From Anaerolineae bacterium (GTDB lineage: Bacteria > Chloroflexota > Anaerolineae > Aggregatilineales > Phototrophicaceae): DNA of 64,000 bases. Within the stretch, counting starts at the first letter, position 1. Each line of letters opens with the position of its first letter. The stretch covers positions 1-64,000 of the forward strand of contig JAJEBE010000057.1 of assembly GCA_022822545.1 (NCBI GenBank). The letters are read 5' to 3'. Shown here in pieces: positions 2-15,288 of this stretch. The notes under the pieces are model-generated. The model was not told the DNA's origin and ran no database searches. It saw only the letters and a list, made by a program, of their open reading frames with translations. A program made the translations under genes and the position numbers.

Positions 2-331
2 ATTTACACGGTGCCGTCCTTCCTTGATCTCGATGCCCACCTATACAATCAGTATCACTCGGGGCAGTGGGGCAGCTTCAATTCTTGCAGTTTCTACCAG
101 AATGATCGGGTTGATGAGCTGCTAGACACCGCGCGCGTCACCGGCGATGCCGCAATGCGCGAATCGATGTACGCCGAAGCGCAAGAAGTCATCAATGAGG
201 ACCAGCCTTCGGTTTGGATGTATACCCTAAGCAGCGGCACGGGGATGCACAAATGCGTGAAGGGCTATCGCTACTCGCCGTATTATCAGGTCACAGTCCT
301 ATTCCAGGATCTGTGGATGGACGGGTGTTAG
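2..331 (+). CDS. ABC transporter substrate-binding protein, family 5 (peptide type), C-terminal fragment, truncated by window edge
   Basis: ORF open to the window edge; C-terminal part resembles SBP_bac_5 (VDELLDTARVTGDAAMRESMYAEAQEVINEDQPSVWMY) and is followed by dppBCDF-like genes. Confidence 0.85.
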   Translation: MYTVPSFLDLDAHLYNQYHSGQWGSFNSCSFYQNDRVDELLDTARVTGDAAMRESMYAEAQEVINEDQPSVWMYTLSSGTGMHKCVKGYRYSPYYQVTVLFQDLWMDGC

Positions 332-484: not shown

Positions 485-1498
485 ATGAACATCCGCTTCT
501 ACATCCTCAGGCGCATCGTCCTCGTCATACCGACCTTGCTCGGCTTGAGCATCCTGACCTTTTCCATCGCTCGCATCGTCCCGGGCGATCCCGTCGGCTT
601 GGCCGCCGGCCCTCAAGCGACCGAAGAAATCAAGGCAGCCTTGCGGCGCGAACTGGGCTTGGACCAGCCCTTGCCCATCCAATACGTCAATTATATGACC
701 GGGCTCTTCCGCGGCGACTGGGGGGAATCGCTCTACACTCGCCGCTCTGTCATCGGCGACTTGCGCACGTTCTGGCCCGCCACCCTCGAGCTGACTACTG
801 CCGCCGTCGCCATCGCTACAATCTTGGGCGTCCCGGCCGGCGTCATCTCGGCCATGTATCGCAACCGTCTGCCCGACCACGTCGCCCGCGTTCTATCCCT
901 CTTCTTCGTCAGCTTTCCTTCATTTTGGCTGGCGATGATCTTTCAGACCTGGTTCGGGCTCGAATTGGGCTGGTTCCCGATCAGCAAGCGACTGCCTGTA
1001 CTGGTCGCGCCGCCGGCCGCCACGACCGGTTTGTTCTTGGTCGACAGCCTCATCCAACTGGACTTGCAAACCTTCCTCGTATCGCTGCGCCACTTATTCA
1101 TTCCGGCGCTCGTGCTCTCATTTGGCGCCTTCGCCAGCATCACTCGCATCACCCGCGCCAGCATGGTCGAAGCGCTGGAAAAAGACTTCGTCCGCATGGA
1201 GCGCGCCATCGGCATCCCTTATCGCATCATCATCTTCAAATATGTGCTGCGCAACGCCCTCATCGCTACCATCACCGTCATCTCGCTCAATTTCGGCTGG
1301 CTGATGGCGGGGGCGATTCTGATTGAAACCATCTTCGATTGGCCCGGGCTGGGATTATATGCCGTCAAAGCGTCGCTCAGCCTCGATTTTCAGCCGATCA
1401 TGGGTATCGCCATTCTTTATGGCATCGTCTTCAGCATCGTGAATATCCTGACCGATATTGTCTACGGCATCCTGGACCCGAGGATTCGCTATGGCTGA
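485..1498 (+). CDS. Peptide ABC transporter permease (DppB/OppB family)
   Basis: 337 aa; N-terminal MNIRFYILRRIVLVIPTLLGLSILTFSIARIVPGDP typical of DppB. Confidence 0.93.
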   Translation: MNIRFYILRRIVLVIPTLLGLSILTFSIARIVPGDPVGLAAGPQATEEIKAALRRELGLDQPLPIQYVNYMTGLFRGDWGESLYTRRSVIGDLRTFWPATLELTTAAVAIATILGVPAGVISAMYRNRLPDHVARVLSLFFVSFPSFWLAMIFQTWFGLELGWFPISKRLPVLVAPPAATTGLFLVDSLIQLDLQTFLVSLRHLFIPALVLSFGAFASITRITRASMVEALEKDFVRMERAIGIPYRIIIFKYVLRNALIATITVISLNFGWLMAGAILIETIFDWPGLGLYAVKASLSLDFQPIMGIAILYGIVFSIVNILTDIVYGILDPRIRYG

Positions 1499-2396
1499 GC
1501 TGCCCTCGATCCAGCCAGAAAAGCGGAAAAGCGCGCGTTCGGCTCGCTGGGAGAATTTCGCCCGCGGCATCTACCGCTTCCGTTCCAATACCTTGTCGAT
1601 GATCGGTCTCACGATGCTGATCTTCATCTTGCTCGTGGCGGTCTTCGCGCCAATCATCGCCCCTTATCCCGAAGACGCCAGCGGCAAGACCCGCGTCATC
1701 GCCCGTTTGCAGCCGCCCAGCGCCGAATTCGCTTTCGGCACCGACAAGATCGGCCGCGATATCTTCAGCCGCGTCGTCATGGGCACGGGCCTGGCGCTGC
1801 AAGTCGGCACGGTCATCATCTTGCTGGCGACGACAATCGGCGTCACCATCGGCGCTATCTCCGGTTATGCCGGCGGCTGGCTTGATGATTTTCTCATGCG
1901 CATCACTGACATTTTCCTGACCGTGCCCGCCCTCGTCTTGGCGATTGCCATCTCGGCCGCGCTTGGCAAGGGCATCATCAACGCCATGATCGGCATTTCG
2001 CTGGTCTGGTGGCCCGGCTTCGCCCGCCTGACGCGGAGCTTGGTGCTGTCCTTGCGCGAGGAGCCCTTCGTGGAAGCGGCTTATGGCATCGGCGCCGGCC
2101 ACATGCGCATCATCTTCCGCCACATCCTGCCCAACGCCGTCTCGCCCATCATCATCAAAATGACCACCGACTTCGGCTTCGCCGTTCTCACCGCCGCCGC
2201 GCTGGGCTTCATCGGCTTGGGCGCGCAGCCGCCGACGCCGGAATGGGGCGCCATGATCAACGACGGCCGCCGCTTTTTCCCTGACGAATGGTGGATCGCC
2301 ACCTTTCCCGGCATTGCCATCTGGCTGATGGTTTTCAGTTGGAACCTTATTGGCGATGGCTTGCGCGATGTCCTCGATCCACGCTCGCGGCGCTAG
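1491..2396 (+). CDS. Peptide ABC transporter permease (DppC/OppC family)
   Basis: ATG at 1491 overlaps the stop of the previous gene; FGTDKIGRDIFSRVVMGTG motif of DppC. Confidence 0.92.
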   Translation: MAELPSIQPEKRKSARSARWENFARGIYRFRSNTLSMIGLTMLIFILLVAVFAPIIAPYPEDASGKTRVIARLQPPSAEFAFGTDKIGRDIFSRVVMGTGLALQVGTVIILLATTIGVTIGAISGYAGGWLDDFLMRITDIFLTVPALVLAIAISAALGKGIINAMIGISLVWWPGFARLTRSLVLSLREEPFVEAAYGIGAGHMRIIFRHILPNAVSPIIIKMTTDFGFAVLTAAALGFIGLGAQPPTPEWGAMINDGRRFFPDEWWIATFPGIAIWLMVFSWNLIGDGLRDVLDPRSRR

Positions 2397-2894: not shown

Positions 2895-3920
2895 ATGGCC
2901 GACCTGCTCAACATAGACAACCTGCACCTGGAATTCCACACCTACGATGGCGTCGTCAAGGTGCTGGCCGGCGTCGACCTGAAGATGCAGCGCGGCGATG
3001 TGCTCGGCTTGGTCGGCGAGACCGGCTGCGGAAAGTCCATGACCGCGCTCTCCGTCCCGCGCCTCATCCCCATGCCGCCGGGCAAAATCACCGCCGGGCG
3101 CGTGACCTTCAACGGCGAGGACATCCTGAGCAAGACAGAAAGCGAGATGGAAGCTTTTCGCGCGCGCCATGTCGGCATGATCTTCCAGGATCCGGTCACC
3201 AACTTGAACCCGCTTTTTACCATCCGCGAGCAGCTTGTCGATGCCGTGCTCTACCAGCGCGCTCAAGGGCAGAAAGTGCCCGGGCGCTGGCGCGGCTTCC
3301 TGCCGTCAGTGCGGCAAATGCGAAAAGACGCTCACGATCGCGCGGTTGAGCTCATGCGTTTGACCGGCATCCCCGATGGCGACAAGCGCATCTACGACTA
3401 CCCGCATCAATTCAGCGGCGGCATGCGTCAGCGCGTCTTGATCGCTATGGCGCTGGCCGGCGACCCCGACTTGCTCATCGCCGACGAGCCGACCACCGCT
3501 CTCGATGTGACGATACAAGCGCAGATCCTGCGGCTGATTCGCTCGCTGGTGAAGCAACTCGGCTTGACTGTGCTGCTCATCACGCATAATCTCGGCGTGG
3601 TCGCCCGCAGTTGCGAGCGCGTCGCCGTCATGTACTCGGGCCGCGTCATCGAGGAATCGCCTGTGCGCGAACTTTTCAAAAATCCCAAGCATCCCTACAC
3701 CCGCGGCTTGATCGCGGCGGTGCCGCAGAAGGATATCTCTCGCGGCGGCCTGGAAGGCATCCCGGGCATGATTCCCAATTTGATCGATCCGCCGGCCGGC
3801 TGCCGCTTTCACCCCCGCTGCCCGCAAGTCATGGATATCTGCCGCAGCGCCGTTCCGCCGGCTGTCAGCGTCGGCGCCGACCATAGCGCCGCCTGCTTTT
3901 TGTATCCGGAGGACGCATGA
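2895..3920 (+). CDS. Peptide ABC transporter ATP-binding protein (DppD family)
   Basis: Walker A GETGCGKS, signature FSGGMRQR, Walker [14 protein letters not shown]-terminal GCRFHPRCP. Confidence 0.94.
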
Positions 3921-4915
3921 GCCCCCTCCTCGAAGTCAACAACCTGCAAAAACACTTCCCGGTGCGCGGCGGTTTGCTTAATCGCATCGTCAGCGATTTC
4001 CGCGCTGTGGACGATGTCAGCTTCGCCTTGCGGGAAGGCAAGACTTTGGGCTTGGTCGGCGAATCCGGCTCGGGCAAGACCACCATCGGCAAGTGCATTC
4101 TGCGCTTGCTGGAGCCGACCGCCGGGCAAATCCTCTACGACGGGGCGGACATCACTCATCTCAAGCAGCGCGACCTGCGCCGCCTGAGGGGGGAAATCCA
4201 GATGATTTATCAAGCGCCGGCCGCCTCGCTGAACGGGCGCATGACCGTCGGGGGGATCATCGGCGAGCCACTCTGGATCCACGAGGGTCTCAAAGGCGAT
4301 GTCGCGCGGGAACGCGTGCTCGAGCTCATGAACGTGGTCGGCTTGAAAGAAGAGCACTATTACCGCTACCCGCATGAATTCAGCGGCGGGCAGCAGCAGC
4401 GCATCGGCATCGCCCGCGCCCTGGCCGTGCAACCGCGCTTGATTGTGCTGGACGAGCCGACCTCGGCGCTGGATGTCTCGGTGCAGGCGCAGATCCTCAA
4501 CTTGCTGCAAGACCTGCAAGATCAATTCGACCTGACTTATCTCTTCATCTCGCACGATCTCGGCGTCGTGCGTTATATGTGCGATGAGGTGGCGCTGCTT
4601 TATCTGGGCAAAATCGTTGAAGTCGCCGAGACGGAAGTCATCTTTGAAGCGCCCAAGCACCCTTATACGCAAGCGCTGATTTCGGCCATCCCCGAGCCGG
4701 ACCCGGATATGCAGCGCGAAGAAATCATTCTGCGGGGAGAATTGTCGTCGTCCCCCCTGATGCATCGGGGGGGCGGCTGTCCCTTCGCGCCCCGCTGCCA
4801 CGCCGAGAAACTGGCGACCTGCGAGACGGTACTGCCGTCGCTGGTTGAAGTGGAGCGGCAACATCAAGTCGCCTGCCATTTGCATCCGCCAATATCCATC
4901 GCGGAGGTTCACTGA
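3917..4915 (+). CDS. Peptide ABC transporter ATP-binding protein (DppF family)
   Basis: Walker A GESGSGKT, signature FSGGQQQR, Walker B LIVLDEPTSALD; overlaps previous stop by 4 bp. Confidence 0.94.
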   Translation: MSPLLEVNNLQKHFPVRGGLLNRIVSDFRAVDDVSFALREGKTLGLVGESGSGKTTIGKCILRLLEPTAGQILYDGADITHLKQRDLRRLRGEIQMIYQAPAASLNGRMTVGGIIGEPLWIHEGLKGDVARERVLELMNVVGLKEEHYYRYPHEFSGGQQQRIGIARALAVQPRLIVLDEPTSALDVSVQAQILNLLQDLQDQFDLTYLFISHDLGVVRYMCDEVALLYLGKIVEVAETEVIFEAPKHPYTQALISAIPEPDPDMQREEIILRGELSSSPLMHRGGGCPFAPRCHAEKLATCETVLPSLVEVERQHQVACHLHPPISIAEVH

Positions 4916-6015
4916 TGCTGCGTCAAGTTACGCTGGATGATATTCGGCCGATAGGCATCGGCGCCGGCATCCTGGGCACGGGCGGCGGCGGCAACCCCTA
5001 CCTCGGCGGCTTGCACCTGGCCTCGATCATCCGCGAGCGCGGACCGCAAGCCATCATTGATCCCTTCGACCTGGCGGACGATGCGCTCTGCTGCGTCGTC
5101 GGCAGCATCGGCGCGCCCACGGTCAGCATCGAGAAGCTGCCCGAAGGCACGGAGATGTGCCGGGCCCTGCGCCTGCTGGAGGCGCATATCGGCCGCCGCT
5201 TTGATGCCGTCGCCATCGCCGAAATCGGCGGCGCCAATTCGATGCAGCCACTGATCGGCGGTTTGCAAGCGGGCATCCCGACGGTGGATAGCGACAGCAT
5301 GGGGCGCGCTTATCCCGAGATTCAGATGTCAACTTTCCTCTTCGATACCAGCGCGACCGCCGCGTCGCTGGCCATGGTGGACGCGGCTGACAACGCCGCT
5401 GTCGTACCGGCCGCCGTCAGCGATGTCTGGGCGGAAAAAATCGCGCGCAATATAGCCGTCAGCATGGGCGCGCGCGCTGGCTTGGCCGGCACGATCATGA
5501 GCGGCGCGCAGGTCAAGGCAGCCGGCGTCCACTACACGCTGAGCCTGGCGCATCACCTGGGCGCGCAAGTCATCGAGGCGCAAGCGCAGAAATCCGATGT
5601 GCCGGTCGTGGTCGCTGAGGCGCTGGACGGGCAAGTCATTTTCCGCGGCAAGATCGCCGATGTCGAGCGCCGCACGACCAAAGGCTTCGCCCGCGGCGGC
5701 GTCCGCATCGACAGCTTCAGCGGGGGCGACCGGCTGGCAATCGAATTCCAGAACGAATTCTTGATCGCTTATCTCAATGGCGAGGTCGCGGCGACCACGC
5801 CCGATCTCATCTGCATTGTCACGGAAGAGGAGGGCGAGCCGGTCACCACCGAGGTCTTGCGTTACGGCACGCGCGTCGCTGTCATCACTGTGCCCGCGCC
5901 GCCGCAGTTGAAGAGTGAAGCGGCGCTCGAGGTGGTGGGTCCCGGCGCTTTTGGCTACGATGTCGAGTTCCGGCCGCTGCCGGGCGGTGTGATTGGGCTG
6001 CGGCCGCAAGGATAA
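4915..6015 (+). CDS. DUF917 family protein (S-methyl-thiohydantoin desulfurase-like), copy 1
   Basis: MLRQVTLDDIRPIGIGAGILGTGGGGNPYLGG; VDSDSMGRAYPEIQMSTF; start overlaps dppF stop by 1 bp; homologous to ORFs at 8702, 9787, 10872 and 11951. Confidence 0.85.
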   Translation: MLRQVTLDDIRPIGIGAGILGTGGGGNPYLGGLHLASIIRERGPQAIIDPFDLADDALCCVVGSIGAPTVSIEKLPEGTEMCRALRLLEAHIGRRFDAVAIAEIGGANSMQPLIGGLQAGIPTVDSDSMGRAYPEIQMSTFLFDTSATAASLAMVDAADNAAVVPAAVSDVWAEKIARNIAVSMGARAGLAGTIMSGAQVKAAGVHYTLSLAHHLGAQVIEAQAQKSDVPVVVAEALDGQVIFRGKIADVERRTTKGFARGGVRIDSFSGGDRLAIEFQNEFLIAYLNGEVAATTPDLICIVTEEEGEPVTTEVLRYGTRVAVITVPAPPQLKSEAALEVVGPGAFGYDVEFRPLPGGVIGLRPQG

Positions 6016-6044
6016 TTCGACAATGTGATTTGCTCGACTGTTTT

Positions 6045-7067
6045 ATGGAGATACACGTGGTTAAAGCAATCCGATTCACAGTGATGATTCTCGCCTTCTC
6101 GCTTTGCCATGCGGCTGGGGCGCAGGCCTACTCGATTCGCGTAGAATTCAACACGAATTTGCGCGTGGAACCCAGCCTTGACAGCCGCATCGTCGAATCG
6201 GCGACCGCCAGCTCTGTTTTGCAAGTAGTCGACAGTCTCAATCGTTGGTTGAAGATCGACAGGAATGGCCGCGCCGTTTGGATGGCAAGTTGGGTGAGCC
6301 ATACTCGAGTTCGGGACAGCGGCCCATCTGAACAGGCAGCGCAAGTTGACAATTGCTGCTTCGTGGACAGGCAGTGCCATAGCGACCAGGACTGGAGGGA
6401 TGGCTATTGGGCGTACCAACGCAACGAATGCCCGGTCGGCGCATCACAGCCGCAAGTATCAACTCCGCCCACAAGTACCGCATCGTCTCAAGTTGATAAT
6501 TGCTGCTTCGTTGGTCGGCAGTGCCACAGCGATCAGGACTGGAGGGATGGCTATTGGGCTCACCAGAACGGGCAATGCGGTGCGCCAGCATCTGCTGATC
6601 CGACTCGCCCCCTAATCGAGGGTTCAGCCCGTTTCGTTCACCGCGTCAATGGCGCTCTAAACTGGCTCCAACGACGTGCGCCGGATTGGTACGCGTATGT
6701 TACATCTGGAATAGACAAGATTGGACAGAGTTCGCTATACGGAATTAGTTATGCAAAGCTTGCTTCACATGCCGCACACATATCCCACAGTCACGCCTTT
6801 CGCGGAGAGGGCAGAACGGTGGACTACATGATACTCTGCAGTACGCTTGTCCATGAGGCGGCACATATCCACGACGCTGTCGCCGGGCTGTCGTTTGAGG
6901 GTTGGGATGCAGAAATCAGGGCGGAACAAAAGCAGCTTGAGTTCTACAGAGCTGTTGATCCCTATAGCCAGTATGACGCAATTACCTATTTGAAGAGAGG
7001 ACTAGTCAATGAAATCATCAGTATGGAAAGGGGATGGTTGGCCAGTCAATTGAATCGAGAAAATTGA
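6045..7067 (+). CDS. Secreted SH3b-like protein with two Cys-rich repeats and a HExxH motif region
   Basis: Signal-like N-terminus; SH3b-like NLRVEPSLDSRIV...VVDSLNRWLKI; two copies of VDNCCFVxRQCHSDQDWRDGYWAxQ; LVHEAAHIHDAVAG near C-terminus. Confidence 0.7.
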   Translation: MEIHVVKAIRFTVMILAFSLCHAAGAQAYSIRVEFNTNLRVEPSLDSRIVESATASSVLQVVDSLNRWLKIDRNGRAVWMASWVSHTRVRDSGPSEQAAQVDNCCFVDRQCHSDQDWRDGYWAYQRNECPVGASQPQVSTPPTSTASSQVDNCCFVGRQCHSDQDWRDGYWAHQNGQCGAPASADPTRPLIEGSARFVHRVNGALNWLQRRAPDWYAYVTSGIDKIGQSSLYGISYAKLASHAAHISHSHAFRGEGRTVDYMILCSTLVHEAAHIHDAVAGLSFEGWDAEIRAEQKQLEFYRAVDPYSQYDAITYLKRGLVNEIISMERGWLASQLNREN

Positions 7068-7158
7068 ATTGTTAAAACTTTGCCGATTGGTATTCGCTTC
7101 ACTCTGAACAACTTGCCATACTTGTTCTGTCTGCTAAGTAATCACAAGGAAAACAAAC

Positions 7159-8700
7159 ATGAGAATCGGAGTAGATGTCGGCGGGACCAACACCGACGCC
7201 GTCTTGATGGACGGCGCGAATGTCATCAGTTCGACCAAAACCCCCACCACCGCTAACGTATCGGAAGGCATCGCCAAAGCATTAAGCACGGTCATCGCCG
7301 ATTCCGGCATTGAAGCAGCCGCCATCGATGGCGTCATGATCGGCACCACGCACTTCACCAATGCCGTCGTCGAACGCAAACACCTGACGCCTACCGCCTG
7401 CATCCGCCTGGGCTTGCCCGCCACCGTCTGCCTGCCGCCCATGGTCGATTGGCCTGATGACCTGCGCGATATGGTCGGCGGCAATTCGCACCTGGCGCAC
7501 GGTGGCCACGAATTCGATGGGCGCGAAATCTCCGCGTATCAACCGGATGAAGTGCGCGAGATCGCCAGGAAGATCCGCGACGCCGGCTTGAGCGCCATCG
7601 CCATCTCGTCGGTCTTCTCGCCGGTCAATTCGACCTTTGAAGAGCAGAGCGCCGAGATCGTCCGCGAGCTCATCCCCGATGCCAATATCACGCTGTCGAG
7701 CGAGATCGGGCGCATCGGCTTGCTGGAGCGGGAGAACGCCGCCATCATGAACTCCTGCCTGCGGCAACTGGCCGCGCGTACGGTGGACGGCTTCAAAGCG
7801 GCGCTGGACGAGTTGCAGATCACCGCGCCCTTTTACATCAGCCAAAATGACGGCACGCTGATGAACGCCGATTTCGCCAAAGAATACCCGGTTCTCACTT
7901 TCGCCTCGGGACCCACCAACAGCATGCGCGGGGCGGCTTTCCTCAGCGGTTTGCGCGATGCCATCGTCGTGGACGTAGGCGGCACCACCACCGATATCGG
8001 CGTCTTGCAGCACGGCTTCCCGCGGGTGGCGGCGCTGGCGGTGGATATTGGCGGCGTCCGCACCAACTTCCGCATGCCCGATACCTACTCCATCGGCCTT
8101 GGCGGCGGCAGTTTGATCGAGAGCGACCCGCTGAAAGTCGGTCCGCGCAGCGTCGGTTACGAGTTGACCGAGAAGGCGCTCGTCTTCGGCGGCGATATTC
8201 TGACCGCGACTGACGTCATCGTGGCCGGCGGCAGTGAAGATATCGGCGACGCGGGGGCCGTCAGCCATCTGGACGCGTCGCTCGTGGCCGCTGTGCAAGC
8301 GCGCATCATGGAGATGATCACGATCGCGGTCGACCGCATGAAGACCAGCGCCACCCCCGTCCCCGTCATCGTGGTCGGCGGCGGCAGCATCCTCGTCACG
8401 GGCGCGATTGAAGGCGCTTCCGAGATTATCAAGCCGGATCACTTCCCGGTGGCCAACGCCATCGGCGCTGCTATCGCCCAGGTGGGCGGCGAATGCGACC
8501 GCATCTTCTCCCTCGCCGAGCTCAGCCGCGATGAGGCCCTCGATCAAGCCAAGAGCGAAGCCAGCAACCGCGCGGTTAACGCCGGCGCGAACGCCGACAG
8601 CATCGAGATTGTCGATGTCGAAGAAGTGCCGCTGGCTTACCTGCCGGGCAACGCCACCCGCATCATGGTCAAAGCCATCGGCGATCTTGTGGAGGCGTAA
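7159..8700 (+). CDS. Hydantoinase/oxoprolinase family protein (HyuA-like)
   Basis: MRIGVDVGGTNTDAVLMDG, IGTTHFTNAVVERK, FASGPTNSMRGAAFLSG, VDVGGTTTDIGVL. Confidence 0.92.
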   Translation: MRIGVDVGGTNTDAVLMDGANVISSTKTPTTANVSEGIAKALSTVIADSGIEAAAIDGVMIGTTHFTNAVVERKHLTPTACIRLGLPATVCLPPMVDWPDDLRDMVGGNSHLAHGGHEFDGREISAYQPDEVREIARKIRDAGLSAIAISSVFSPVNSTFEEQSAEIVRELIPDANITLSSEIGRIGLLERENAAIMNSCLRQLAARTVDGFKAALDELQITAPFYISQNDGTLMNADFAKEYPVLTFASGPTNSMRGAAFLSGLRDAIVVDVGGTTTDIGVLQHGFPRVAALAVDIGGVRTNFRMPDTYSIGLGGGSLIESDPLKVGPRSVGYELTEKALVFGGDILTATDVIVAGGSEDIGDAGAVSHLDASLVAAVQARIMEMITIAVDRMKTSATPVPVIVVGGGSILVTGAIEGASEIIKPDHFPVANAIGAAIAQVGGECDRIFSLAELSRDEALDQAKSEASNRAVNAGANADSIEIVDVEEVPLAYLPGNATRIMVKAIGDLVEA

Positions 8701-8701
8701 A

Positions 8702-9787
8702 ATGCGAATCATTGATGAAGCTGTCCTTGAAGACCTTGCGCTCGGCGCGGCTGTCCTGGGAACGGGCGGCGGCGGCGACCCCTATATCGGCAAGCTCATG
8801 GCGCGGCAGGCCATCCGCGATTATGGTCCGGTCGAGCTTTATACCTTGGACGAACTCGATGACGATGACCTCATCGTGCCCACCGCCATGATGGGCGCGC
8901 CCACCGTCATGGTCGAGAAGATGCCCAACGGCGACGACATCGTCAATGCCTTCCAAAGTGTGGGCAAATACATCGGCAAACCGGTCAAGGCGACTATGAG
9001 CATCGAAGCTGGCGGACTCAACTCAGTCGTGCCCATCTACTGCGCCGCCCGCCTCGGTGTGCCCATGGTCGATTGCGATGGCATGGGACGGGCTTTCCCC
9101 GAGCTGCAAATGGTCACGCATACCATTCACGGCATCTCGTCGACGCCCTTCGCCATGTCCGATGAACGCGGCAACACGGTGCTGATGGAGACGATCAGCA
9201 ACCTCTGGACCGAGACCTTCGCCCGCAGCGTCACCGTCAACATGGGCGCCATGGCGATGATCGCGCTCTACGCCGCCACCGCCGCCCAACTGCGCGAAGC
9301 CGCCATTCCCGGCACTATCACGCTCGCCGAAGAAATCGGCAAGGTCGTGCGCCGCGCCCGCCTGGAAGAAGACGAACCGGTCGAAACGATTCGCGAAGCC
9401 GTCGGCGGCTACCTGATCTTCAAGGGTAAAATCGGCGATGTCGAGCGCCGCACCGAAGCCGGTTTCGCTAAAGGCGACGCCATCATCGAGGGCATCGACG
9501 AATACGCCGGGCAGAAGCTCCAGCTCAGCTTCCAGAACGAACATCTCGCGGCCCGCATCGACGGCGAATTCAAAGTGACTGTGCCCGATCTGCTGGCGGT
9601 GCTTGATGTCGATACCGGCGAACCGATCACGACCGAAGGCTTGCGCTATGGCTTCCGCGTCGCCATCATCGCTATTCCCTGCGCCGAAAAGTGGCGTAGT
9701 CCAAAAGGTCTGGAGATCGTCGGACCGGCTTATTTCGGCTATGACACCGAATACGTTCCGGTCGAAGAAACTTATGGAGCCGACTGA
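8702..9787 (+). CDS. DUF917 family protein, copy 2
   Basis: MRIIDEAVLEDLALGAAVLGTGGGGDPYIGKLMAR; start trimmed from the 8408 ORF to the ATG just after the HyuA-like stop. Confidence 0.87.
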   Translation: MRIIDEAVLEDLALGAAVLGTGGGGDPYIGKLMARQAIRDYGPVELYTLDELDDDDLIVPTAMMGAPTVMVEKMPNGDDIVNAFQSVGKYIGKPVKATMSIEAGGLNSVVPIYCAARLGVPMVDCDGMGRAFPELQMVTHTIHGISSTPFAMSDERGNTVLMETISNLWTETFARSVTVNMGAMAMIALYAATAAQLREAAIPGTITLAEEIGKVVRRARLEEDEPVETIREAVGGYLIFKGKIGDVERRTEAGFAKGDAIIEGIDEYAGQKLQLSFQNEHLAARIDGEFKVTVPDLLAVLDVDTGEPITTEGLRYGFRVAIIAIPCAEKWRSPKGLEIVGPAYFGYDTEYVPVEETYGAD

Positions 9788-10872
9788 TGCGACTGCTCTA
9801 CGAAGAAAATATCGAAGACATTGCGCTTGGCGCGGCGGTGCTGGGCACGGGCGGCGGCGGCGATCCCTACGTCGGCAAGTTGATGGCGCGGGAAGCGGTG
9901 CGTCAATATGGCCCGGTCGAGCTATACAGCCTTGACGAACTCGATGACGATGACCTCATCGTGCCGTCGGCCGGCATGGGCGCGCCTATCGTCATTGTGG
10001 AGAAGCTGCCCGCCGGCGATGATATGATCCGCGCCTTCAAAGCGCTCGGCAGATACTCGGGTCGCGAACCGCGCGGCACTATGAGCATCGAAGCGGGCGG
10101 GCTGAACTCGATCATGCCGATCTACGTCGCCGCCCGGTTGCGCATCCCTATGGTCGATTGCGATGGCATGGGCCGGGCTTTCCCCGAGATCCAGATGACC
10201 ATCTTCACCGCCCACGGCATCACTGCCAGCCCCTTCGCCATGTCCGATGAGCGCGGCAATGTCCTGCTGATGGACACGGTCAGCAATAAGTGGGTCGAGA
10301 CCTTCGCCCGCTCCTGCGTCGTGCATATGGGCGCTGAAGGCATGATCGCGCTGTATTCGGCCACGGTGAAGCAGCTCAAGGAGGCGGCGATTCACGGCAC
10401 CATCACGCTGGCCGAAGAAATTGGGGCGACCGTCCGCAACGCCCGCCGCGCCGAAGCCAATCCGGTCGACGCCGTGCGTAAGGCGGTGGGCGGTTTCTTG
10501 CTCTTCCGCGGCAAAATCACCGATGTCGACCGGCGCATCGAAGGCGGCTGGAACCGCGGCGATGCTCGCATGGCCGGCATCGACGACTTTGAAGGCAGCG
10601 AGTTGCTGCTTGACTTCCAGAACGAACATCTCGCAGTCCGCATCAATGGCGAATTCGCCGCTACTGTGCCCGATCTCATCGCCGTGCTCGACAGCGAAAC
10701 CGGCGAGCCCATCACCACCGAAGCGCTGCGCTACGGCATGCGCGTGGCTGTCATTGCCTTTCCCTGCGCCCCGCAATGGCGGGAGCCGGCCGCGTTGGAA
10801 CTCGCTCACCCGCGTTACTTCGGCTACGATGTCGATTATGTGCCGGTCGAGGAGCGCTACCGAGGCGGCTGA
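9787..10872 (+). CDS. DUF917 family protein, copy 3
   Basis: MRLLYEENIEDIALGAAVLGTGGGGDPYVGKLMAR; overlaps previous stop by 1 bp. Confidence 0.87.
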   Translation: MRLLYEENIEDIALGAAVLGTGGGGDPYVGKLMAREAVRQYGPVELYSLDELDDDDLIVPSAGMGAPIVIVEKLPAGDDMIRAFKALGRYSGREPRGTMSIEAGGLNSIMPIYVAARLRIPMVDCDGMGRAFPEIQMTIFTAHGITASPFAMSDERGNVLLMDTVSNKWVETFARSCVVHMGAEGMIALYSATVKQLKEAAIHGTITLAEEIGATVRNARRAEANPVDAVRKAVGGFLLFRGKITDVDRRIEGGWNRGDARMAGIDDFEGSELLLDFQNEHLAVRINGEFAATVPDLIAVLDSETGEPITTEALRYGMRVAVIAFPCAPQWREPAALELAHPRYFGYDVDYVPVEERYRGG

Positions 10873-11954
10873 TGCGGCTGCTTTACGAAGCGAACATTGA
10901 AGATATCGCCATCGGCGCAGCCGTCCTCGGCTCGGGCGGCGGCAGCGACCCCTACATCGGCAAATTGATGGCGCGCGAAGCTATCCGTCAATTCGGTCCC
11001 GTCCCGCTCTACAGCCTGGAAGAACTGGCTGACGACGACCTTGTCATGCCGGTCGCCGGCATGGGTGCGCCAACGGTCCTGCGCGAGAAGCTGCCCGCTG
11101 GTGATGATATCGTCCGCGCTTTCCACACGTTGGCCAAATACGCCGGGCGAGGGGCGCGCGCCACCATGAGCATCGAAGCAGGCGGCATGAACTCGATCCG
11201 CCCCATTTATATCGGCGCGCGCCTGGGACTACCCGTCGTCGATTGCGACGGCATGGGCCGGGCCTTCCCCGAAATCCAAATGACCGTCTTGACCGCCCAC
11301 GGCATCAGCGCCAGCCCCTTCGTCATGTCCGACGAACGCGGCAATGTCCTGCTCATGAATGCCGTCAGCAATCGCTGGATCGAAACCTTCTCCCGCTCCT
11401 GCGTCATGCACATGGGCGCGACCTGCGCCATCGCCCTCTACTCGGCCACTGTCGCGCAACTGAAAGAAGCGGCCATCCCCGGCACAATCACTCTCGCCGA
11501 AGAGATCGGCAGAACGCTGCGCCAGGCCCGCCGTCACGAGCGGAATCCGGTTGCCGCCCTCTGCCAGGCCATCGGGGGTTTCCTTCTCTTCCGCGGCAAA
11601 ATCACCGATGTGGATCGGCGCGTCGTCGCCGGCTTCGCCCGAGGCGATGCGCGGATGAGAGGCTCAGGCGCCTTTGCCGACCAAGACCTGCGGCTCGATT
11701 TCCAGAATGAACACCTGGTCGTGCGCATCGACGGCGAATACATCGCCACCACGCCTGACCTCATCGCCGTCCTCGATAGCGAGACCGCCAACCCCGTCAC
11801 CACAGAATCACTGCGCTACGGCATGCGCGTCGCCGTCATCGCCATCCCTTGCGCCCCGCAATGGCGCGAGCCGGCCGCGCTGGCACTCGTGCATCCGCGT
11901 TACTTCGGCTACGATGTGGACTATATTCCGGTTGAGGAGAGATTCCGATCATGA
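10872..11954 (+). CDS. DUF917 family protein, copy 4
   Basis: MRLLYEANIEDIAIGAAVLGSGGGSDPYIGKLMAR; overlaps previous stop by 1 bp. Confidence 0.87.
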   Translation: MRLLYEANIEDIAIGAAVLGSGGGSDPYIGKLMAREAIRQFGPVPLYSLEELADDDLVMPVAGMGAPTVLREKLPAGDDIVRAFHTLAKYAGRGARATMSIEAGGMNSIRPIYIGARLGLPVVDCDGMGRAFPEIQMTVLTAHGISASPFVMSDERGNVLLMNAVSNRWIETFSRSCVMHMGATCAIALYSATVAQLKEAAIPGTITLAEEIGRTLRQARRHERNPVAALCQAIGGFLLFRGKITDVDRRVVAGFARGDARMRGSGAFADQDLRLDFQNEHLVVRIDGEYIATTPDLIAVLDSETANPVTTESLRYGMRVAVIAIPCAPQWREPAALALVHPRYFGYDVDYIPVEERFRS

Positions 11955-13036
11955 TGCAATCCGTCACCCTCGATGACACCCAAGCCATCGCCATCGGCGC
12001 CGGCATCCTCGGCACGGGCGGTGGCGGCAGCACCTACCTCAACCGCCTGCGGCTGGAGAATGAATTGCGGCGGCAGGGCAGAGCCGTCCCCATCCTCCAA
12101 GCTGACGATGTGCCGGATGACGCGCTGGTTTGCGCCGTCGGCGGCATGGGCGCGCCCACCGTCAGCAACGAGAAACTGCAAGCCGGGGACGAGATTCACA
12201 CCGCCGTCCGCGCCCTGGAAAACCACCTGCGGCAGAAAATCCACGCTATTGTCATCGGCGAGATCGGCGGCGGCAACGCTCTCGGTCCCATGGTCGCCGC
12301 CCTCCAGCTTGGCTTGCCCGTCGTCGATGGCGACGGCATGGGGCGGGCTTTCCCCGAGTTGCAGATGGACACCTTCATGATCTACGGCGCCGCGCCCGCG
12401 CCCTTCGCCCTGGCCGATAGCCATGGCAACGTCAGCATCTTCACGCGCATCGGCTCGGCGGAGCAAGCTGAGGAATTCGCCCGCAGCTTGACCATCGAGA
12501 TGGGTGGCTCCGCCGCTCTTGTCATGCCGGTCATGACCGGCGCTCAGCTCAAAGCGACCATCATCCGCGACACAGTCAGCCTGGCCAAGCGCATCGGCGA
12601 CGCCGTCTTGAAATGCCGGGCCGGCAGCATTGAGCCGGCCGAGACCGTGGCGGCGCTTTGCCAGGGCAAGGTGCTTTTTACGGGCAAAATTATCGATGTC
12701 GAGCGCCGGACTGTCGGCGGCTTCGCCCGGGGCAGGCTCATCATCAGCGCGTTCGACGATTACCAGCGCCAACTGGAGATCGACTTCCAAAACGAGAATC
12801 TGATCGCTCGCAGCAATGGCAATGTCCTCTGCACCGTGCCGGACCTGCTCACCCTCGTCACGCTCGAAGACGGCGAGCCTATCGGCACCGAGTCGCTGCG
12901 CTATGGTTTGCGCGTAGCCGTGCTCGCCATGCCCGCGCCGAAGGAGTTGAAGTCGCCCGCGGCCTTGGCGGTCGTCGGTCCGCGCGCCTTCGGCTACGAT
13001 GTCGATTTCGCGCCGATGCCGGGGGATTTGTTGTAA
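11951..13036 (+). CDS. DUF917 family protein, copy 5
   Basis: MMQSVTLDDTQAIAIGAGILGTGGGGSTYLNRL; overlaps previous stop by 4 bp. Confidence 0.86.
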   Translation: MMQSVTLDDTQAIAIGAGILGTGGGGSTYLNRLRLENELRRQGRAVPILQADDVPDDALVCAVGGMGAPTVSNEKLQAGDEIHTAVRALENHLRQKIHAIVIGEIGGGNALGPMVAALQLGLPVVDGDGMGRAFPELQMDTFMIYGAAPAPFALADSHGNVSIFTRIGSAEQAEEFARSLTIEMGGSAALVMPVMTGAQLKATIIRDTVSLAKRIGDAVLKCRAGSIEPAETVAALCQGKVLFTGKIIDVERRTVGGFARGRLIISAFDDYQRQLEIDFQNENLIARSNGNVLCTVPDLLTLVTLEDGEPIGTESLRYGLRVAVLAMPAPKELKSPAALAVVGPRAFGYDVDFAPMPGDLL

Positions 13037-13396: not shown

Positions 13397-13804
13397 ATGA
13401 GATACCTGCTCGATACCAATATCTGCATCTATTGTATCAACGGAAGATATCCGCGGCTTTTTGATAGAGTGCTCCTGCGGCATCAAAGGACAGGTGTTGC
13501 CATCAGCGCGATTTCCAAGGCGGAAATGTATGCCGGTTCGTACCGTCGGCGTTCGTCCGCGGTGTATCGGCAGGAGCAGGACGAGTTCTTTTCGCGCTTT
13601 CCCAGCTTGCCCTTCAATGATGACGCAGCCGATGTCTACGGCCGCATACACGCATTCTTGAGAGACCGCGGACAGCTTATGGGCGTCGCCGATATGCAGA
13701 TTGCAGCCATCGCGATGGTAAACGGATTGACCGTGGTGACGCACGATATGCGCGGTTTTGCGCGACTCGTTGATTTACCGATCGAAGATTGGACTACCGA
13801 GTAA
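13397..13804 (+). CDS. PIN domain ribonuclease, VapC-like toxin
   Basis: MRYLLDTNICIYCING start; conserved acidic residues and C-terminal GVADMQIAAIAMVNGLTVVTHDMRGFARL. Confidence 0.88.
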   Translation: MRYLLDTNICIYCINGRYPRLFDRVLLRHQRTGVAISAISKAEMYAGSYRRRSSAVYRQEQDEFFSRFPSLPFNDDAADVYGRIHAFLRDRGQLMGVADMQIAAIAMVNGLTVVTHDMRGFARLVDLPIEDWTTE

Positions 13805-13824
13805 CGGTCGCATTGGAGCACGGC

Positions 13825-15288
13825 ATGCCCAAACAACCCCATATCATTATCTTCAACCCGGACCAGTGGCGCGGCGATGTTATGGCGCACCTTGGCAATC
13901 CCGCCGCCGTCACGCCCAACCTTGATCGCATCATCGAATCCGACGCCGTTTCCTTCCGCCATGCCTTCTGCCAAAATCCGGTCTGCACGCCCAGCCGCTG
14001 CTCCTTCATGACCGGCTGGTATCCCCACGTCCGCGGCCACCGCACCATGCACCACATGCTGCAGCCGGATGAACCGGTCTTGCTCAAGCAACTCAAGGAC
14101 GCCGGTTACTTTGTCTTTTGGGGTGGCAAGAACGATCTGGTCCCGCGCCAGAACGGCTTCGCCGATTATTGCGATGTCAAATACGAAGCGCCGCGTCCGC
14201 TCCAACCGAACACCCATCGCGCCGATGATTGGCGTGGCGATCCCGACGGCGACAACTACTACTCTTTCTTCGTCGGGAAACTAGATGCCCCCGAGGACGA
14301 AGTTTATTACGACAACGACTGGGCGATGGTTGATGGCGCCATCGAACAAATCCGGAACGCTCCACCCGATCAGCCGCTTTGCGTCTACTTGCCTCTTGGC
14401 TACCCGCATCCGCCCTATGGCGTCGAAGAGCCCTGGTTCAGCCAGATTGACCGCGAGCTTATCCCGCCGCGCAGGTCGACGCCGGATTGGTCAAAGAAGC
14501 CCAGCCTGGTCGCCGGCATCTACGAGCGGCAGCGCTTGCAGAATTGGAGCGAGGAGCGCTTCAATGAGTTGCGCGCGGTTTATTATGGCATGTGCGCCCG
14601 CGTCGACGAGCAGTTCGGGCGGGTCCTCAGTGCGCTCAAGGAGAGCGGACTCTATGACGACAGCGCCATCTTCTTCTTCTCCGATCATGGCGACTTCACC
14701 GGCGATTACGGCTTGGTCGAAAAGACGCAGAACACCTTCGAGGATTGCCTGACTCGCGTCCCCCTCATCGTCAAGCCGCCGGCGGACAAGCCCATCCAGC
14801 CCGGCATCCGCGACCAGTTGGTCGAGCTCATCGACTTCACCGCCACCGCCTATGACTGGGCCGGCATCGACCCCGGCTACGATCACTTCGGTCGCTCGCT
14901 CGCGCCGCTAATCGCCGGCTCAGATGACGAGCACCGTGACGCGGTATTTTGTGAAGGAGGCCGCCGCATCGGCGAAGAGCAGGCGATGGAAAAAGACAGC
15001 CCGTCCTTCTATGATCCCAGCGGGCTCTACTGGCCGCGCGTGCAGCTGCAGGGCAGTGAAGTCGGCGAGCATAGCAAGGCGGCCATGTGCCGCAGTCGCG
15101 ATTACAAATACGTGCGCCGTTTGTACGAGAGCGATGAGCTTTACGACTTGAAAGAGGATCCGGGCGAACTCGTCAATCGCATCGACGATCCCGACTATGC
15201 CGGCGTCCTGGCTGATCTGCGCGAGCGCATGTTGACCTGGTATCAAACTACCTGCGATGTTGTGCCCTACAAGACCGATGTGCGCTGA
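13825..15288 (+). CDS. Sulfatase (alkaline phosphatase superfamily)
   Basis: IIIFNPDQWRGDVM, formylglycine motif CTPSR in NPVCTPSRCSFMTGWYPHVRGHRT, FFFSDHGDFTGDYG. Confidence 0.92.
   Translation: MPKQPHIIIFNPDQWRGDVMAHLGNPAAVTPNLDRIIESDAVSFRHAFCQNPVCTPSRCSFMTGWYPHVRGHRTMHHMLQPDEPVLLKQLKDAGYFVFWGGKNDLVPRQNGFADYCDVKYEAPRPLQPNTHRADDWRGDPDGDNYYSFFVGKLDAPEDEVYYDNDWAMVDGAIEQIRNAPPDQPLCVYLPLGYPHPPYGVEEPWFSQIDRELIPPRRSTPDWSKKPSLVAGIYERQRLQNWSEERFNELRAVYYGMCARVDEQFGRVLSALKESGLYDDSAIFFFSDHGDFTGDYGLVEKTQNTFEDCLTRVPLIVKPPADKPIQPGIRDQLVELIDFTATAYDWAGIDPGYDHFGRSLAPLIAGSDDEHRDAVFCEGGRRIGEEQAMEKDSPSFYDPSGLYWPRVQLQGSEVGEHSKAAMCRSRDYKYVRRLYESDELYDLKEDPGELVNRIDDPDYAGVLADLRERMLTWYQTTCDVVPYKTDVR

Follow-up and report, generated by a model that had tools for sequence, protein, structure and literature searches.

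CapAB belongs to the same family as HyuAB and 5-oxoprolinase. Its alpha-type subunit binds ATP, carries two phosphate motifs together with a GxxPGP motif and is proposed to activate the lactam, which is then cleaved by the beta-type subunit with its His/Asp metal site (PMC8453981). That HyuA genes also occur beside genes for DUF917 proteins is already known, and cyclodipeptide-oxidase (CDO) operons are enriched in DUF917 and hydantoin racemase; DUF917 itself is described as experimentally uncharacterised, with a hydantoinase-like activity suggested (PMC11055893). In the literature searched (subscription papers lay outside the search), no function assigned to DUF917 beside HyuA was found, and a search for DUF917 and thiohydantoin desulfurase gave a single neighbourhood mention and nothing else (PMC11055893). 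Here we analyse the first 64,000 nucleotides of contig JAJEBE010000057.1 (assembly GCA_022822545.1, an Anaerolineae bacterium), hereafter the window, in which a preliminary description had noted five DUF917 genes and one hyuA gene next to a peptide-type transporter. We propose that in this locus DUF917 may take the position and role of HyuB.

Results and Discussion

A short HyuA adjoins DUF917 instead of HyuB

The coordinates of the open reading frames (ORFs) given in the preliminary description were all reproduced in our ORF list, and its five DUF917 ORFs, four of them back-to-back after hyuA, proved to be real, intact and full-length family matches. The genes and motifs central to the argument are as follows.

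4915..6015, + strand, DUF5: type B DUF917 of an ancient subfamily, overlapping dppF (PF06032 and PF20906; 100/100 support for a clade shared with Trueperaceae and other Anaerolineae of the same synteny)
7159..8700, + strand, HyuA, short form: Hydant_A_N and the first 170 of 291 positions of Hydantoinase_A, no Hydant_A_C (profile matches, AlphaFold2 (AF2) model)
7174..7197, + strand, HyuA phosphate-1 motif DVGGTNTD, kept (motif comparison)
7972..7995, + strand, HyuA phosphate-2 motif DVGGTTTD, kept (motif comparison)
8140..8193, + strand, HyuA adenosine-motif site, GxxPGP elsewhere, here GYELTE, GPRSVGYELTEKALVFGG (motif definition from PMC8453981)
8702..9787, + strand, DUF1: type A DUF917, the most constrained copy, orthologue of the Bacillota HyuA-adjacent DUF917 (domain matches, trees, substitution rates, AF2 model)
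9787..10872, + strand, DUF2: type A DUF917, split from DUF1 before the genus (clade 99 in the quick tree with L034, L046 and L029; 100/100 in the careful tree)
10872..11954, + strand, DUF3: type A DUF917, a derivative of DUF2 that originated inside the genus (placed among its DUF2 sequences, 99 in the quick tree)
11951..13036, + strand, DUF4: type B DUF917 of an ancient subfamily (supported at 100/98, with the DUF5 clade as its sister group)

The genes are tightly packed: dppF and DUF5 overlap by 1 bp at 4915, DUF1 and DUF2 by 1 bp at 9787, DUF2 and DUF3 by 1 bp at 10872 and DUF3 and DUF4 by 4 bp at 11951, and 1 bp separates HyuA from DUF1.

With the HyuAB/CapAB/5-oxoprolinase family the window HyuA shares the N-terminal and ATPase-core domains, both phosphate motifs required of the HyuAB/CapAB class (DxGGTxTD and DxGGT) and the fold, its AF2 model (predicted local distance difference test, pLDDT, 88) matching HyuA (NMHase), CapA and acetone carboxylase subunits at template modelling (TM) scores of 0.73-0.80, including 0.73 to CapA 6YRA and 0.74 to NMHase 9H03. 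It differs in that Hydant_A_C and the likewise required adenosine motif GxxPGP are absent, and in that DUF917, not HyuB, occupies the partner position.

The genome itself (4.27 Mb, 95% complete) offers a direct comparison, since it encodes four HyuA and three HyuB proteins. Each of the three long HyuA genes adjoins a hyuB gene, whereas the short window gene alone adjoins DUF917; the hyuB genes are found elsewhere, on contigs C6, C10 and C61, and none adjoins the window hyuA. The transporter plan recurs at locus L091 of this genome (L-numbers label compared loci, and G and C labels the genome and contig of compared genomes), which reads SBP-DppBCDF-HyuA-HyuB, the substrate-binding protein (SBP) being assigned by position and length only, and thus holds HyuB where the window holds DUF917. 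The L091 HyuA has all three domains, including the Hydant_A_C that the window HyuA lacks, and GxxPGP is present in all three HyuB-paired HyuA proteins.

In other genomes, too, the adenosine motif goes with the partner. PGP is absent from 69 of 70 DUF917-adjacent HyuA ORFs, a count obtained by pattern matching on mechanically called ORFs and thus open to small miscounts. The exception is a canonical HyuA of 693 residues in L062 that lies directly 5' of HyuB (PF02538 match G110:C44:75869-77431, by coordinates). Moreover, no HyuB was found in 14 of the 31 other genomes with a HyuA-DUF917 pair (6/13 in one set and 8/18 in another); the 14 include some incomplete metagenome-assembled genomes (MAGs), but also Listeria and Oceanobacillus genomes from isolates. 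In four genomes (both Listeria, Oceanobacillus and that of L068) the DUF917-linked HyuA is the sole HyuA. A natural HyuA-DUF917 fusion was not noticed among the open-frame lengths in the family- and class-level genome scans.

Two observations on partner genes stand apart from this comparison. At L062:9911-19652, a short HyuA with a type A DUF917 is followed by a type-B-like DUF917, a long HyuA with PGP, HyuB and a racemase-like gene, so that both partner systems lie side by side. The genomes of L042 (G099:C8:192685-210256) and L043 (G100:C9:12646-30277) carry about 9-10 head-to-tail Hydantoinase_B (PF02538) genes with a period of about 1.74 kb; the hydantoinase system of these related Chloroflexota thereby shows tandem expansion of another kind as well.

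The five DUF917 copies are intact and constrained

In a profile search, PF06032 and PF20906 together cover all five copies at full length (E 1e-48 to 1e-71), with 163-207 and 214-239 bits for the two domains against a curated cut-off of 27, and the other four copies share 38-50% identity and many invariant columns with DUF5. No further PF06032 gene was found in the genome. All copies are under purifying selection, the ratio of non-synonymous to synonymous substitution (dN/dS) against orthologues being 0.02-0.03 for DUF1, 0.05-0.07 for DUF2, 0.12-0.16 for DUF3, 0.11-0.15 for DUF4, 0.12-0.16 for DUF5 and about 0.06 for HyuA (simple Nei-Gojobori estimates with partly saturated synonymous sites). 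All five share the same residue at twenty polar positions that do not vary within type A (E72, K73, E102, N107, D124, D126, R130, E134, D154, E171, R175, K243, D246, R249, Q278, N279, E280, D296, E312 and R319), and going by their conservation we take them as functional. The loss of active-site residues in most copies, named in the preliminary description as an observation that would speak against it, is thus not seen at the family-invariant polar positions, and decayed copies are ruled out, as all frames are open and constrained and retain the polar core. Outside this core, the type A residues W169, Y190, R217, W331 and Y344 are altered in DUF4. The AF2 model of DUF1 (pLDDT 92) has a sole match in the PDB, CV_3147 (2O3I; E 2e-26, TM 0.79, 25% identity), a protein of unknown function; the fold search thus returned 2O3I only, and the viral structure library gave no match.

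An ancient split followed by two later duplications

The phylogeny proposed in the preliminary description to separate local duplication from ancient subfamilies was built twice, as a quick and a careful tree, and points to both. The two sub-types it had distinguished by eye are real clades, type A at 8702-11954 (three copies) and type B at 11951-13036 and 4915-6015, although the motif it had read for one copy needs correction, 10872-11954 reading GSGGGS and not GTGGGG. Type B, comprising DUF4, DUF5 and their kin, has a support of 100/98 (DUF4 100/98, DUF5 100/100), and type A unites DUF1-3 with the HyuA-adjacent DUF917 of Bacillota. Since the DUF2 clade takes in Trueperaceae L034 and J064 L046 (99, quick tree), DUF2 left DUF1 before the genus arose, and the branching of DUF3 from among the DUF2 sequences of the genus (99, quick tree) places its origin within the genus. 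Judged from the trees, DUF4 and DUF5 are ancient, DUF2 is intermediate and DUF3 is young. One recent tandem burst is ruled out by these three duplication ages.

A genome scan yielded 76 loci, the closest of them (92-95% identity) in Chloroflexota MAGs. Among 34 genomes of the same genus, 20 hold five PF06032 genes, 11 hold four, one holds three and two hold none, and elsewhere in the family 19 of 64 genomes hold 1-4. At class level PF06032 occurs in 40 of 298 genomes; two of these, G225 and G296 of another family, reach 11 DUF917 genes. The core SBP-DppBCDF-DUF5-HyuA-DUF1-DUF4 recurs outside the genus at L035, L038, L041, L042, L043 and L048, with the SBP not recognised in every one of these six, and in partial or enlarged form at L034, L036, L044 and L046; together these loci span Chloroflexota (other Anaerolineae), Trueperaceae and one Acidiferrobacteraceae MAG. 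The preliminary description had held that an arrangement both common in relatives and already assigned to another function would count against it: the arrangement is indeed common there, but no assigned function was found.

The association of HyuA with DUF917 on which it had built is borne out across phyla. DUF917 is widespread and is also carried by plasmids from lactobacilli, rhizobia and insect symbionts. Bacillota pairs (Listeria, Bacillus, plasmid pGEOTH01) consist of adjacent orthologues (HyuA 47-57%, type A DUF917 about 51-58% identity) but have an NCS1 permease instead of Dpp, and their HyuA-adjacent DUF917 is of type A only, without a type B partner; a pair similar to these lies on Sodalis plasmid pSG2. 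Rhizobium and Aminobacter plasmids carry HyuA-DUF917-DUF917, a pair that is ruled out as a sign of an ancient A+B complex because it arose by an independent duplication (99/99).

Transporter and neighbouring genes

The genes upstream of DUF5 and the ORF inserted between DUF5 and HyuA are listed here.

2..331, + strand, SBP (SBP_bac_5 type), C-terminal 109 codons only (60% identical to the L046 SBP upstream of dppB, over residues 418-530 of the latter)
485..1498, + strand, DppB-type permease (PF00528 and PF19300)
1488..2396, + strand, DppC-type permease, start codon uncertain (PF00528 and PF12911)
2895..3920, + strand, DppD-type ATPase (PF00005 and PF08352)
3917..4915, + strand, DppF-type ATPase (PF00005 and PF08352)
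6030..7067, + strand, inserted ORF with an SH3 domain, outside the core operon (PF08239; outside the genus hardly any gap separates DUF5 from HyuA)

DppBCDF are all intact, and the SBP, for which the PF00496 protein of L046 served as comparison, is truncated because the contig itself starts with the first base of the window. Similarity of the SBP to solved structures was uninformative as to its substrate, many family-5 SBPs being matched. The 1.1 kb insert between DUF5 and HyuA is a genus feature. The contents of this gap (window 6016-7158; L011:5715-7178; L007:2384-6776) vary among members of the genus, from the SH3 protein to a DNA methylase with HNH and a 4.4 kb gap, which resembles an insertion hot spot. 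Downstream, at 13397-15288, lie a PIN-domain gene and a sulfatase, the latter present in the genus and not in core operons outside it.

Around orthologous HyuA-DUF917 pairs we found NCS1 cytosine/allantoin-type permeases at 22 loci, Asp/Glu/hydantoin racemases at 12, CDOA and CDOB at 4 and PucR regulators at 3, each count resting on similarity, at any place in the retrieved flanks, to a single scanned representative. The loci with CDOA (PF00881) and CDOB (PF19585) are L050, L051, L053 and L063, and L050 and L051 show divergent tandem DUF917 genes near the CDO genes; in the window, the neighbouring genes that could be assigned include neither CDOA nor CDOB. A Streptomycetaceae plasmid (L086:5436-10757) combines a cytosine permease, HyuA, DUF917, OsmC, a pyridoxal-phosphate-dependent cysteine-synthase-like gene and a divergent DUF917, a set that may point to sulfur chemistry in this lineage. 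In Bacillaceae, a second DUF917-HyuA pair (L069:5925-8601, L085:1083-3593) has eroded HyuA phosphate motifs (DFGGSTIEIG, DVGGSSVHV) and lies near a sigma-54 regulator, and may be non-catalytic or sensory.

Proposed function and alternatives

The import and processing of a small cyclic amide, put forward in the preliminary description, is supported by this context. In the scheme that we propose, a family-5 SBP and DppBCDF would import a small amide-containing compound, the short HyuA would activate the ring carbonyl with ATP or a similar phosphate donor, as proposed for CapA and HyuA, and DUF917, chiefly DUF1, would associate with HyuA in place of HyuB as the subunit cleaving the activated ring. 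The type B proteins DUF4 and DUF5 would form a conserved second component, either as partner subunit or for a second step, with DUF2 and DUF3 as presumably later diversified copies of DUF1. NCS1 permease, racemase and CDO neighbours together with the peptide-type importer point to hydantoins, dihydropyrimidines or diketopiperazines, and the substrates are most likely hydantoin- or diketopiperazine-like rings. We give the scheme of activation by HyuA, cleavage by DUF1 and assistance or a second step by type B about an even chance. Several points weigh against it. ATP use is not assured, because this HyuA class lacks the adenosine-binding GxxPGP; DUF917 has no characterised structural match, as compared to the His/Asp metal site of CapB; the SBP and the transporter have matches of a generic kind only; next to the operon, no gene for a carbamoylase, dipeptidase or racemase to complete the pathway was found; and the literature searched held no description of a DUF917-HyuA complex or activity.

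How the five copies would share the work can be answered in more than one way. That the A+B pairing is kept in several phyla speaks for a complex or for two steps, and the younger DUF2 and DUF3 look more like diversification. Types A and B could form one obligate hetero-oligomer with HyuA, in which DUF2 and DUF3 replace DUF1 in alternative assemblies, as the overlapping genes, the retention of both types in fixed order in Chloroflexota, Trueperaceae and the Acidiferrobacteraceae MAG and the independent evolution of HyuA-DUF917-DUF917 on rhizobial plasmids might suggest; yet most Bacillota pairs manage with a single type A DUF917, so type B is not generally needed, which makes an obligate assembly rather doubtful. 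It is unlikely, too, that the paralogues serve separate substrates with graded specificity, types A and B performing sequential or parallel reactions and HyuA serving DUF1 only. Here, the graded constraint with its maximum at DUF1 and the type-specific changes such as those in DUF4 fit, but a complex explains the fixed A+B synteny equally well.

Two further alternatives were weighed. The Pfam families covering all five copies are named for desulfurase activity, and the preliminary description had linked DUF917 to S-methyl-thiohydantoin desulfurase, so that the copies could be thiohydantoin or S-methyl-thiohydantoin desulfurases of ergothioneine/thiourocanate catabolism. Like the curated desulfurases NF058532 and NF058529, they carry both domains at full length, but they score only 74-117 bits against cut-offs of 440-450, about 1/5 to 1/4 of the curated score (92-117 bits against the equivalog cut-off of 450 for NF058532, S-methyl thiohydantoin desulfurase), their DUF917 relatives beside HyuA score equally low, and they are paired with HyuA. 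A desulfurase route requires a urocanase-type hydratase and an aromatic ammonia-lyase to feed it, and the genome yielded no match to PF01175 or PF00221 at E 1e-3. Low scores and missing pathway families rule out the ergothioneine route, leave the earlier link without support and render a desulfurase function of these copies very improbable. Least probable of all, and hardly to be expected, is that the window HyuA finds its partner in trans among the three HyuB encoded elsewhere in the genome while DUF917 acts as an independent enzyme: each HyuB has its own long HyuA next to it, nearly half of the other genomes with the pair have none, and the short HyuA lacks the Hydant_A_C seen in the HyuB-paired HyuA examined.

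Conclusions

Returning to the proposed HyuA-DUF917 scheme, we tentatively suggest, with slightly less than even confidence, that HyuA-DUF917 represents a distinct class in the ATP-dependent hydantoinase superfamily, with a shortened HyuA, HyuB exchanged for the unrelated DUF917 fold, an altered nucleotide site and, in these Chloroflexota, a multi-paralogue DUF917 set. In the literature searched we found no description of the ordered paralogue ages and the cross-phylum A+B core, nor of HyuB, GxxPGP and the C-terminal domain of HyuA being missing together. With the evidence for a partner switch, what had been a loose association of neighbouring genes becomes a concrete, testable proposal. A close relative, bin20 (prefix MPMG, L024), is listed among the symbionts of the sponge Aplysina aerophoba, and hyuA/hyuB are reported to be enriched in sponge symbionts (PMC5649159); from the names of its MAGs, the whole genus may be sponge-associated. 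The HyuA-DUF917 system could also identify one way in which such symbionts make use of cyclic nitrogen compounds.

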